Part shown: in pieces, positions 41,933 to 45,942 of the stretch
Numbering within the stretch: the stretch's first letter is position 1
How the letters are laid out: every line of letters begins with the position of its first letter
Assembly: GCF_024707485.1 (NCBI RefSeq)
Contig: NZ_CP102602.1
Location: forward strand, 1,364,001 to 1,428,000
Direction: 5' to 3'
Source of the DNA: Thermococcus thermotolerans
Lineage (GTDB): Archaea; Methanobacteriota_B; Thermococci; Thermococcales; Thermococcaceae
DNA length: 64,000 nt
The notes under the pieces: model-generated
Databases searched by the model: none
What the model was told of the DNA's origin: nothing
The model's input: the letters and a program-made list of their open reading frames with translations, nothing else
Position numbers and translations under genes: made by a program

Positions 41933-42325
41933 TCAGCTTTTATACCCCATTTCTTCGAGGCGTATCTTGTAAGTCCTGTGAAAGAAGAAGACCGTCGCAA
42001 TGACAATTATGGGCAGGGCGTATTGAGAGGGTATCGGAAGGAAGGCCACCAGGGCCACGGAGAGTATGTAATAGGCCATCGTCCTCTTGCTGCGACGGTA
42101 CTTCTCGGCGATTTTCCTCTGTCTTGGGTTCCGCATCAGGGCAAAGTATATTGCCAAATAAAAGCCCGCTCCATAGATAAAATTTCGGACGCCTTCCCAG
42201 CTAAAACCCGGAAACCTTTCCGAAAGCGGGGTTGCAATCACGTAAACGGCGAACACAATGGGTATGAAGAGATAAATAAAGAGAAACTCTCCCCAGAACT
42301 CACTCAGGACTTCTCTCATGCTCAT
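41933..42325 (-). CDS. Four-segment membrane protein, possible immunity/partner protein
   Basis: A 130-residue protein with four hydrophobic segments (FLFIYLFIPIVFAVYVIATP, FIYGAGFYLAIYFALM, MAYYILSVALVAFLPI, YALPIIVIATVFFF) and a basic loop and tail. Its ATG overlaps the stop of the secreted protein gene (ATGA), so the two are made together. No family recognised. The layout of a secreted protein followed by a small membrane protein recurs at 44329-45323 and 60342-61714, which suggests a protection or export role. This is inference. Confidence 0.65.
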   Translation of the reverse strand: MSMREVLSEFWGEFLFIYLFIPIVFAVYVIATPLSERFPGFSWEGVRNFIYGAGFYLAIYFALMRNPRQRKIAEKYRRSKRTMAYYILSVALVAFLPIPSQYALPIIVIATVFFFHRTYKIRLEEMGYKS

Positions 42326-43323
42326 TCATTAGTCCCTCCAATGCTCAATGCACCAGGAGGCCAATAGTCAGGTAATGAAATATAAGCATCCACAGGATCA
42401 GCGGCCCACATTCCATCTCTGACAACACCAAAGTTCTCTAGTGCCCATGAGACCGCCCGATCTACGGCAAATTCTACTACTCTTGAAACTACTGTCCCCA
42501 CTATTGGATCCTTTAATATTACTGTGGTAGCACCATTGGCTATTAGGCCAGCCACATCGGTAGTAACATCTTCCAGCCACTTATTTCCAAAGGTATGCAC
42601 ATAGGTCATGTAAGTAGTGATTGCGCCACCTCTTCCAAGCAGATACTCTGTATTTATATCATACATAACTTGAATAACCCCACGCTTAATCTGGTCACCA
42701 ACTTTAAAAGTCAACTGGTGTTCAAGAACCCCACTATTCCAATCAAAGCTGGTATCGTCTGCAGTTTTTACAACATCATGATTACCAAAAGCGCTACCCG
42801 ACTCCAGCTGACCACCCCACACATCCACTGGCCTCACAAGAAGGTTTTCACTAGTCTTTCCAACTACAGTAGTGATGGAAATAACGTCCATATCCCCACT
42901 ATCCGCCAAATCCTCTGTTAGATCCCATTCCCAATAATAGTCAATGAACAAAGTGGCATATTGTTGTTGGAGAAGATACTCAATAGTAAGTGTAAGATCA
43001 CTCTGTGACACCCATGTGTCAGGATGAGGCAAGTCCTTACCAAATTTTTGAGACTCTACTAAAGAAATTCTTCCCGACACAGGAATACTGAAAGTCTTTT
43101 TAATTTCTCCAAGTTTAACAATTCCATATTTCTCCAACAGCATATCCGCTTCCCTCGTCCGTTCTTGTGCTTTTAGCTCTACATACTCCTTCATAACTTG
43201 CTTTAAAATGTCCTTTGTAATCCTTGGCTCATATCCCTTCATGCTTGATGCCTCAATTGGTATGGCCCCAATACCAAACACTAGTAGTACTAATATCATG
43301 CTACCCAAGATCCTGCGGTTCAT
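42322..43323 (-). CDS. Secreted protein of unknown family
   Basis: A 333-residue protein with a signal peptide (ILGSMILVLLVFGIGAIPIE) ending near ASS and no further strong membrane segment. A central beta-rich part contains DYYWEWDLTEDL and VMYDINTEYLLGRGG. The last ~80 residues form a moderately hydrophobic helix-rich region (VSRVVEFAVDRAVSWALENF) ending PDYWPPGALSIGGTNE. There are no cysteines. Composition is more AT-rich than its neighbours. The ATG at 43323 has GGTGGT upstream. No recognised family; it could be an envelope protein or a secreted toxin precursor, judged only from its coupling to the membrane protein gene. Confidence 0.65.
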   Translation of the reverse strand: MNRRILGSMILVLLVFGIGAIPIEASSMKGYEPRITKDILKQVMKEYVELKAQERTREADMLLEKYGIVKLGEIKKTFSIPVSGRISLVESQKFGKDLPHPDTWVSQSDLTLTIEYLLQQQYATLFIDYYWEWDLTEDLADSGDMDVISITTVVGKTSENLLVRPVDVWGGQLESGSAFGNHDVVKTADDTSFDWNSGVLEHQLTFKVGDQIKRGVIQVMYDINTEYLLGRGGAITTYMTYVHTFGNKWLEDVTTDVAGLIANGATTVILKDPIVGTVVSRVVEFAVDRAVSWALENFGVVRDGMWAADPVDAYISLPDYWPPGALSIGGTNE

Positions 43324-43369
43324 ATAGACCACCTTTCCAACATTTTCATTACATTTGTTGATGACCCAA

Positions 43370-43384
43370 CATATAAGCTTTTCT
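43370..43384 (-). promoter_or_regulatory. Promoter of the secreted-protein pair
   Basis: On the minus strand GAAAAGCTTATATG gives a clear BRE/TATA. Predicted start near 43347, 24 bases before the ATG at 43323. Confidence 0.6.
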
Positions 43385-43572
43385 GTTTACTAAAAGTAAT
43401 TTCTTTTTCTTTTTTTTTTCAGTAGTGTTTTTTTCTAATTATGGTTTATCTGAGACTTTGAGGCAAAAGAAAGATGAGTAAGCTGATGAACAAATAGCAC
43501 AACTACACATTAATTCGAAACATGTTCTCAAATATCACCAAAAATTGATTTTGACATTTTCCTGCCAACGGA
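43385..43572. other. AT-rich spacer between divergent promoters
   Basis: Contains long T-runs on the plus strand (43404-43436) and no open frame of note. A CTGA and GATGA-like string near 43450-43490 was considered as a box C/D RNA but the order of boxes is wrong. Nothing else seen. Confidence 0.5.
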
Positions 43573-43663: not shown

Positions 43664-44125
43664 ATGGACAAGGTTTACCTCACCTGGTGGCAGGTGGACA
43701 GGGCGATATTCGCGCTTGCCGATAAGTTGAGGGAGTATAAACCCGACGTCATAGTCGGCATAGCGAGGGGAGGACTCATCCCGGCCGTGAGGCTCAGCCA
43801 CATACTTGGCGATATTGAGGTCAAGGTCATCGACGTCAAGTTCTACAAGGACATCGAGGAGAGGATGGAGAAGCCGCTCATAACCATCCCCCTCCACGGC
43901 TCGCTGGAGGGCAAGAAAGTCGTTATCGTTGACGACGTCAGCGACACCGGGAAGACCCTCGAAGTCGTCATCGATGAGGTCAAGAAGGCCGGCGCATCGG
44001 ATGTTAAAGTGGCCTGCCTCAGCATGAAGCCCTGGACGAAGGTGGTTCCCGACTTCTACGTCTTCCGCACGGACAAGTGGATAGTCTTCCCCTGGGAGGA
44101 GTTCCCGGTTGTCGTGAGAGAATGA
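43664..44125 (+). CDS. Purine phosphoribosyltransferase (xanthine/guanine type likely)
   Basis: A 153-residue type I phosphoribosyltransferase. The PRPP signature KVVIVDDVSDTGKTLEVVID is at about residue 85, preceded by VIVGIARGGLIPAVRLSHIL with the PPi loop. It ends with VFRTDKWIVFPWEEFP, the short hood that binds the base in Gpt-like enzymes. It salvages a purine base with PRPP; base preference is uncertain. The ATG follows GGAGGTG. Confidence 0.88.
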   Translation: MDKVYLTWWQVDRAIFALADKLREYKPDVIVGIARGGLIPAVRLSHILGDIEVKVIDVKFYKDIEERMEKPLITIPLHGSLEGKKVVIVDDVSDTGKTLEVVIDEVKKAGASDVKVACLSMKPWTKVVPDFYVFRTDKWIVFPWEEFPVVVRE

Positions 44126-44137: not shown

Positions 44138-44263
44138 GCACTTTCTTTGCATCGCCATGCAACTCCTTTACTCAGGCTTCTTTTGAAAAGTTCTAAGAGG
44201 AAAACTCGCATTAGAATAAATTCATGCTCGAAAATAAAGGGAAGAATTTTTACTAAGAGTAAA

Positions 44264-44280
44264 CGGAAAAGGTTATAAAG
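44264..44280 (+). promoter_or_regulatory. Promoter of the second secreted-protein pair
   Basis: CGGAAAAGGTTATAAAG is a strong BRE/TATA. Predicted start near 44303, leaving a ~25-base leader with GGATGTGA before the ATG at 44329. Confidence 0.65.
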
Positions 44281-44328
44281 GATAAATCATCCAAATAGTA
44301 ATGCAAAAACTATAAGGATGTGAACTCC

Positions 44329-45150
44329 ATGCGGTGGAAGTCGTTGTTCGCAGTCCTGTTGGGACTGCTAATGATTGGAGTGACGGCTGAAAGTGCAAGT
44401 GCAACTGCGAATATTAATAAGCAGCCGACAGATACCCCACTAATATTAACGGTTCAGAGTTTGAGCCCAATAGAGAAAAAGAATGTTCTTCTCCTTGCCC
44501 AAAGGGACCTAAGGAAATTGGGAGTATCTTCAGTCTCTGTAGATGCGTTGTCAGGAGTTAAGAGTGAAGGGAAGTATGTTTTCTTCATAAACACTTCAAA
44601 AGGTATTGTGGTAGGAACATATGATGGCAGTTCACTCAGCATGGCGTTAGTAACATATTATACTTCCAACAAGATCACAGTGAAAGTAGTAACAAACGGA
44701 CAAGTTCACTATGAATATTATGACGCTACAGTCATCAACACTCTTAAGCAAACAATCTCCAAGTCAAGTGTCCTCAACTACAAAACTATTGGATACGACA
44801 TTGGCACCACAGTAAGGGCACCTAAAGAGAGTGAAACAATACTTCCCCAGTGGCACTATGAACAACACTGGTGGGGATGGAAACTTACTTTAAATGAGCA
44901 TGAAACCCAAATGCTACTAGATTTCATGGGAATAGGAATCGCCGGTGGAGGAACCAAAATAGGGAGGGCTGCACTTATCGCATTTTTAGAAAGAATCGGT
45001 ATCACAGTAGCAGAAAGTATCCTAATGGGGATAGCAGAGGCACTTATATTAGCAGGTGCATACATTAAAGTAGTTGATGACCTAGGGGGTAATAAAGGAA
45101 TATATATCAAGCAAGTGTTAGGAGGCCCTATCATAATATGGCATAACTAA
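44329..45150 (+). CDS. Secreted precursor with glycine-rich hydrophobic C-terminus, bacteriocin-like layout
   Basis: A 273-residue protein with a signal peptide (WKSLFAVLLGLLMIGVTAES) and a soluble middle part. Its last ~75 residues are hydrophobic and glycine-rich: FMGIGIAGGGTKIGRAALIA, then GITVAESILMGIAEALILAG, and a polar end GNKGIYIKQVLGGPIIIWHN. Cysteines are absent. Such a membrane-active C-terminal segment behind a signal peptide and a longer pro-region is what precursor proteins of some archaeocins and bacteriocins look like, but no family was recognised. A 53-codon gene for a two-segment membrane protein follows after 11 bases. It has its own promoter. Confidence 0.65.
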   Translation: MRWKSLFAVLLGLLMIGVTAESASATANINKQPTDTPLILTVQSLSPIEKKNVLLLAQRDLRKLGVSSVSVDALSGVKSEGKYVFFINTSKGIVVGTYDGSSLSMALVTYYTSNKITVKVVTNGQVHYEYYDATVINTLKQTISKSSVLNYKTIGYDIGTTVRAPKESETILPQWHYEQHWWGWKLTLNEHETQMLLDFMGIGIAGGGTKIGRAALIAFLERIGITVAESILMGIAEALILAGAYIKVVDDLGGNKGIYIKQVLGGPIIIWHN

Positions 45151-45161
45151 GAGGTGGGAAA

Positions 45162-45323
45162 ATGAACTACAGGACAATTTTGGATTTCCTAATCTTTCTT
45201 TATATTCTAGTGATATTTGTTCTGAAGCACACAAAGTCAAAACGTGGGGACAGTTTGCCACTGGATATCATGTGGGAGATTGGAGTAATAGCGTTCATTC
45301 TGATGTGGCTTCTAGGATGGTGA
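45162..45323 (+). CDS. 53-residue two-segment membrane protein, candidate immunity protein
   Basis: A short gene opening with GAGGTGGGAAA before the ATG. The product has one hydrophobic segment near the N-terminus (ILDFLIFLYILVIFVL), a basic loop (KHTKSKRGD) and a second segment (IMWEIGVIAFILMWLLGW) at the very end. Small two-segment hairpins encoded directly after a peptide precursor are typical of bacteriocin immunity or export helpers. The strong ribosome binding site and tight spacing make it a real gene; the function is inferred. Confidence 0.65.
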   Translation: MNYRTILDFLIFLYILVIFVLKHTKSKRGDSLPLDIMWEIGVIAFILMWLLGW

Positions 45324-45387: not shown

Positions 45388-45942
45388 ATGAGGGCGTTCA
45401 TAGCCATTGAGGTTAGCGACGAAGTCCGCGACAACCTCATGAAAGCCCAGGAGAGGATAGGGAGCAAAGCGGCGAAGATAAAGTTCGTCGAGAGGGAGAA
45501 CTTCCACGTTACCCTAAAGTTCCTCGGCGAGATTGATGAGGTTTTAGCGGAGGAGGTCAAGAAGGCGTTAGCCGAGATAGCTAAGAAACATAAGAAGCAC
45601 CGCGTTAAAGTGAAGGGCATCGGCGTCTTCCCGAACCCGAACTACGTCCGCGTAATCTGGGCTGGAATAGAGAACGACGATGGGATAAAGGCGATAGCGA
45701 AGGACGTCGAGCGGGAAATGAGGAGGCTCGGCTTCAAGAAAGACAAGGACTTCGTGGCGCACATAACCATAGGCAGGGTGAAGTTCGTCAGGGACAAGCT
45801 GGAGCTGGCGATGGCCCTCAAAGAGCTCGCCAACGAGGATTTCGGAGAGTTCGATGTCGAGGCCATAGAGCTGAAGAAGAGCACGCTTACACCGAAGGGC
45901 CCGATCTATGAGACCGTTGCGAGGTTCGAGCTGGCCGAGTGA
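45388..45942 (+). CDS. thpR: RNA 2',3'-cyclic phosphodiesterase (2H family)
   Basis: A 184-residue 2H phosphoesterase with both HxTx motifs, HVTL at residues 40-43 and HITI at 125-128, and the family start [10 protein letters not shown]. It opens 2',3'-cyclic phosphates on RNA ends and was long described as an RNA 2'-5' ligase. GGTGGT precedes the ATG. Its 3' end overlaps the convergent ATPase gene by 37 bases. Confidence 0.93.

Follow-up and report, generated by a model that had tools for sequence, protein, structure and literature searches.

A secreted precursor and a downstream 53-residue membrane protein of Thermococcus thermotolerans as a probable antagonist and immunity pair behind a widely shared promoter and leader

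Antagonism by hyperthermophilic archaea is, to our knowledge, almost undescribed, and HalC8, one of the best comparisons available, is a cysteine-rich peptide. C-terminal release has been reported for HalH4 and HalC8, and a reference title in the same paper describes halocin C8 as the product of a single gene that directs both production and immunity (PMC12893001). Here we describe a gene pair of T. thermotolerans, which lies in a window of 64,000 nucleotides (G000:C1:1364001-1428000, with G000 denoting the 2.07-Mb genome of the window; feature coordinates below are window positions) and which encodes a secreted precursor followed by a small membrane protein. As in halocins C8 and H4, the precursor is secreted and its putative active part is C-terminal. 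It differs from halocin C8 in that no cysteine is present in the 273 amino acids (aa) of the precursor and in that the immunity-like product is encoded by a separate gene, even if the pro-region might also have an immunity role. In contrast to both halocins, its leader is without a twin-arginine motif, and no sequence relation to the curated families of Pfam and NCBIfam was detectable. We regard the pair as probably an operon for antagonism between related cells, composed of a secreted antagonist and its cognate membrane immunity protein.

Other described systems share parts of this architecture. As in polymorphic toxins, a conserved N-terminal export part precedes a variable remainder, cognate immunity genes are found adjacent or as orphans, and cassettes are exchanged; however, what is shared here is limited to the promoter and a 25-aa signal peptide, the entire mature protein varies, and no known toxin domain was recognized. 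In the VARTIG, hypervariable islands of Thermococcales for which roles in conflict have been proposed (PMC8416519), small membrane proteins likewise follow hypervariable secreted ones, but the operon there is headed by the large immunoglobulin (Ig)-domain protein arCOG07710, whereas the locus described here has neither an Ig domain nor a large protein. A small immunity-like membrane protein directly downstream and a glycine-rich helical putative effector are reminiscent of class II bacteriocins, from which the pair is distinguished by the absence of a double-glycine leader, a long pro-region, an archaeal host and the lack of homology. Judged from its sequence, the pair would work like an archaeocin or bacteriocin with its immunity protein, while it fits no known family (no cysteine, double-glycine leader, Ig domain or homology).

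The long open reading frame (ORF; 44320/44329-45150, plus strand, as are all elements of the pair) was assigned the start codon ATG 44329 because the leader is conserved, and encodes the putative antagonist precursor, designated type 1 (44329-45150). Its 25-aa leader MRWKSLFAVLLGLLMIGVTAESASA (44329-44403) is of the hydrophobic signal-peptide type and ends in a signal-peptidase-like ASA, as is expected of the secreted precursors of the bacteriocin and archaeocin class. The leader is followed by a pro-region of about 150 aa (44404-44862), for which an alpha/beta domain was modelled with moderate confidence at about residues 44-132, and by a C-terminal region of 95 aa including 15 glycines (44863-45147; HWWGWK...GGNKGIYI...IIIWHN), a Gly-rich domain and the putative effector. 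The small ORF (45162-45323) begins 11 bases past the precursor stop with its own ribosome-binding site (RBS; gaggtggg, 45151-45158) and encodes a 53-aa membrane protein with two hydrophobic segments, the putative cognate immunity protein of type 1. One promoter lies ahead of both genes and comprises a palindromic operator TTACTaagAGTAA (44250-44262) and the TFB-recognition element (BRE)/TATA element GGAAAAGGTTATA (44265-44277), which is common to leader-bearing genes; the RBS of the precursor follows (aaggatgtga, 44314-44323; family consensus GGAGGTGA). The original prediction, made from this sequence alone, had proposed a cysteine-free secreted precursor, a two-segment membrane protein encoded 11 bases downstream and a promoter of the pair's own, all of which were confirmed. 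The hydrophobic glycine-rich end that it had proposed was recovered in a refined form: the C-terminal helices of the window precursor bear charged residues (K, R, E), whereas the related type-2 protein is more uniformly hydrophobic. Since amino-acid change is reduced in the conserved small ORF, and since the promoter-leader segment is conserved ahead of unrelated genes, the pair is real and not a product of chance.

Among 94 Thermococcaceae genomes, intact full-length relatives of the precursor were found only in G014, G055 and G072, at about 40% identity, and copies in G060, G077, G041 and G052 are broken or truncated. An intact matching small gene accompanies the intact precursor in 4/4 cases (G000, G014, G055, G072); homologues that lack the small gene were sought and none was found, which is the co-occurrence that had been suggested as a check. 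Type-1 small genes pair with window-like precursors, namely that of G000 and the broken ones of G060 and G077, and type-2 small genes pair with the precursors of G014, G055 and G072 and with a precursor stump in G041. In G014, a type-2 pair coexists with a type-1 small gene that is an orphan. An alignment with invariant Y14, G41, F45 and W49 suggests that the two types of small protein are related. Among the copies found, the pro-region and the C-terminal domain always occurred together and the pro-domain was never seen joined to other C-terminal domains; a profile of the C-terminal domain revealed no clear additional member in 115 genomes of the phylum.

Nine intact small genes are present without an intact precursor. 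In G071 the small gene stands alone, and the promoter region runs straight into the last precursor codons, after which RBS and small gene are intact, so that the precursor was lost through an internal deletion. Only the last 19 precursor codons are left in G052, a frameshifted or stopped precursor precedes the intact small gene in G060 and G077, and a 67-aa stump does so in G041. The remaining cases are the second copy of G014 and those of G031, G034 and G045, where the small gene stands alone between leuS and a major facilitator superfamily (MFS) gene. The ratio of nonsynonymous to synonymous substitution rates (dN/dS) among close small-gene copies was mostly 0.12-0.29 where measurable, and in a neutral simulation so few amino-acid changes without a stop were rare (P 0.001-0.022 in 7/8 pairs; one pair was not significant). 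Several orphan small genes are under purifying selection. Together, the intact orphans, the constraint, the type matching and the promoter-retaining deletion are as expected of an immunity gene and are not expected of a secretion or maturation partner. By genomic criteria (4/4 pairing, nine orphans, type matching), the locus has a putative adjacent cognate immunity gene, as in the bacteriocin and archaeocin class.

The same pattern could be read as that of a decaying locus, in which neither gene is of much use and size alone makes the longer one the first to break. At five times the length of the small gene, the precursor represents 0.84 of the joint mutational target, which is also its chance per hit, and several precursors are indeed pseudogenes. 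However, in most comparisons the small genes have fewer amino-acid changes than under neutrality and no stops, and the four intact precursors keep conserved motifs at about 40% identity, so that we consider decay very improbable. Several observations do weigh against an antagonist and immunity pair. Because of the length of the precursor, one-sided loss is partly expected and by itself weak evidence. An orphan small gene in G055 is frameshifted, and not all of the constraint need date from the orphan state, because several orphans diverged partly before the loss of the precursor. The nine orphans correspond to fewer independent events, with those of G031, G034 and G045 sharing one site. Furthermore, none of the bacteriocin, archaeocin, immunity or defence models showed homology, the precursor matched no PDB entry in sequence or in fold, and its predicted structure is of low confidence.

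The searches covered Pfam, NCBIfam and PADLOC for both proteins, as well as PHROGs for the precursor, with nothing significant; the remote-homology comparison with bacteriocin families that the original prediction had called for was thus negative. No relatives of the C-terminal domain or the precursor were found in plasmids and phages (with a low-complexity filter) or in IMG/VR and GTDB contigs (with short patterns), searches which distant bacterial relatives could escape. The precursor has no Ig domain, with a non-significant Ig-like match in just 2/6 C-terminal domains. In the AlphaFold2 model, the C-terminal domain has three helices and a beta hairpin, with a mean predicted local distance difference test score (pLDDT) of just 63 against 47 for the whole precursor, so the structure prediction proposed as a further check supplied a fold at limited confidence. 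The original reading is thus partly supported: a precursor with its immunity protein is favored by the strict pairing, the many immunity-only loci and the type matching, whereas 'archaeocin-like' applies to the architecture only (secreted precursor, putative C-terminal effector, adjacent immunity gene) and does not extend to a sequence or fold match to bacteriocins or archaeocins.

We propose that the precursor would be exported via its N-terminal signal peptide and that, before its release or exposure, the C-terminal domain is probably kept in a soluble or inactive state by the pro-region; if an extracellular protease carried out the release, this would resemble halocins H4 and C8 (PMC12893001). 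The glycine-rich helical domain would then probably act on the membrane of related Thermococcaceae. Membrane activity is proposed because of the composition of this domain, because the immunity-like protein is located in the membrane and because of a weak Gly-zipper match of a parallel cargo, the family of 294-297-aa leader proteins described below. The co-expressed 53-aa protein would reside in the membrane of the producer and block only the matching type of C-terminal domain, and resistance would persist in cells that retain the small gene after losing the precursor.

Beyond what a single sequence could reveal, the main context of the pair was found to be a shared promoter-leader cassette, a variable chromosomal slot and a TrmB-like operator. 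When the 94 genomes were searched with the precursor, most matches covered the leader alone, on otherwise unrelated secreted proteins, and a promoter region of about 100 bp together with the 25-aa leader is common to about 15 unrelated secreted cargo families. The promoter regions of a sample of 46 leader genes in 16 cargo clusters were compared, all found through leader similarity with upstream similarity playing no part. Between pairs from different clusters, identity was 72% over the 100 bp upstream (60.5% shuffled) and 58% over the 100 bp after the leader (57.5% shuffled). The upstream consensus contains, immediately 5' of BRE/TATA, the palindrome TTACTnnnAGTAA, which includes TACTN3AGTA. 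With up to 2 mismatches, this operator-promoter pattern was detected at 146 sites in 60/94 genomes versus 2 for the reversed-pattern control, and with up to 3 mismatches at 8 sites in the window's genome versus 0 for the control. All 8/8 of the latter lie directly upstream of a secreted-protein ORF, the site at 1548949 having been assigned by its leader gene. A membrane-protein ORF with RBS follows 21/43 leader genes, compared with 45/460 random positions.

Own-genome sites near G000:C1 772368, 778428, 1095445, 1223338, 1548949 and 1764098 (L194-L200) have secreted proteins of 261-427 aa downstream, and at several of these loci the secreted-protein gene is followed by a membrane-protein ORF. 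Within the window, a 336-aa secreted protein with another leader (42322-43332) and an overlapping gene for a 130-aa membrane protein are encoded on the minus strand (41933-43332). The same operator-promoter is present ahead of the former gene (43372-43399, minus strand), and these genes are probably another pair of the same regulon. Homology of the 336-aa protein to a leader cargo was considered and rejected, as the two could not be aligned, and no relation between its 130-aa partner and the 53-aa protein was detectable. Elsewhere, the NCBIfam model of the surface adhesin Lsa23 matches a leader cargo of G016 (L013, 586-1605, minus strand) at E 2e-15, which falls short of the curated cut-off.

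Published work gives TACTN3AGTA as the site of TrmB in Pyrococcus furiosus and Thermococcus litoralis (PMC10667668; PMC4158304), and for the paralogues TrmBL1 and Tgr a position of the motif upstream of BRE/TATA is associated with activation and a downstream position with repression (PMC4158304). The window operator carries this motif at the promoter and is therefore of the TrmB type. Four clear TrmB-family proteins with a sugar-binding domain, plus one weaker match, are encoded in the window's genome, which contains 19 perfect TACTN3AGTA sites; five are within the operator-promoter set, and two others are located about 2 kb from one TrmB-family gene. Because the bare 11-bp motif is not enriched genome-wide (19 distinct sites versus 88 for the reversed control), the case for TrmB rests on the operator plus its promoter context. 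From the published site, the TrmB-family genes and the sites in the same genome, control of the pair by a TrmB-family protein therefore appears likely. As this is the site of sugar regulons, the small protein could instead be an export, anchoring or maturation partner of a surface- or sugar-related long protein under TrmB-type control, with no toxin involved. Such a role would agree with the small gene always standing beside intact precursors and with the sub-threshold adhesin match of another cargo. Retention of the small gene under constraint without the precursor in many genomes is, however, unexpected of a dedicated partner, and the precursor showed no carbohydrate or surface domain (Pfam, NCBIfam), which leaves this role unlikely.

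The antagonist and immunity pair occupies a variable slot, bordered outside the module by a phosphoribosyltransferase gene upstream (43664-44125, plus strand) and by thpR, encoding RNA 2',3'-cyclic phosphodiesterase, downstream (45388-45942, plus strand). Both flanks were measurable in 49 genomes of the genus, and among these the gap was empty (12-43 bp) in 14/49 and filled (0.25-3.8 kb) in 35/49. At the 5' flank of the module lies an inverted repeat, TTGCAT-cgcc-ATGCAA (TTGCATnnnnATGCAA, 44148-44163, without strand); repeats of this type are found at most occupied sites regardless of cargo and are absent from empty (42-bp) sites, and could be a terminator or a recombination landmark. The cargo of the slot differs between genomes: besides the window-type pair, it can consist of a leader protein of 294-297 aa and a membrane protein of 105 aa (six loci, L101, L102, L103, L119, L127 and L144, some broken), of a leader protein of 222-225 aa and a membrane protein with 9 segments, or of one of several 350-1000-aa proteins. 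Of the 105-aa partner, G060 has an orphan copy (L132) and G015 one that is damaged at its 5' end (L139). A second insertion site for such genes adjoins leuS (L164, L165, L166, L002, L005, L009). As far as our literature search shows, with limited coverage of subscription journals, the promoter-leader cassette and the exchange sites have not been described. Site-specific presence and absence, together with the retention pattern of the small gene, would also be produced by a selfish, toxin-antitoxin-like addiction module that maintains itself at chromosomal sites and whose immunity gene mainly counters module loss. The long protein, however, carries a signal peptide, lacks any recognisable domain of a cytoplasmic toxin (Pfam, NCBIfam) and belongs to a promoter-sharing set of secreted proteins, and we hold such a module to be improbable.

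Taken together, the antagonist and immunity pair would be one cargo of a secreted family with a common leader and a promoter with a TrmB-type operator, located in a slot of cargo exchange. More tentatively, and with slightly less than even confidence, Thermococcaceae may possess an arsenal of co-regulated, exchangeable and unrelated secreted effectors, which would share one TrmB-type (sugar-sensing) promoter and leader, would be swapped as cassettes at fixed slots (phosphoribosyltransferase-thpR and beside leuS) and would commonly have, directly after them, a gene for the matching membrane immunity protein, which persists in orphan form. The locus provides a concrete candidate precursor and immunity pair with natural immunity-only strains, and the promoter-plus-leader signature picks out dozens of other candidate effectors. 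The pattern suggests a sugar-sensing control tied to the secretion of competitive proteins.
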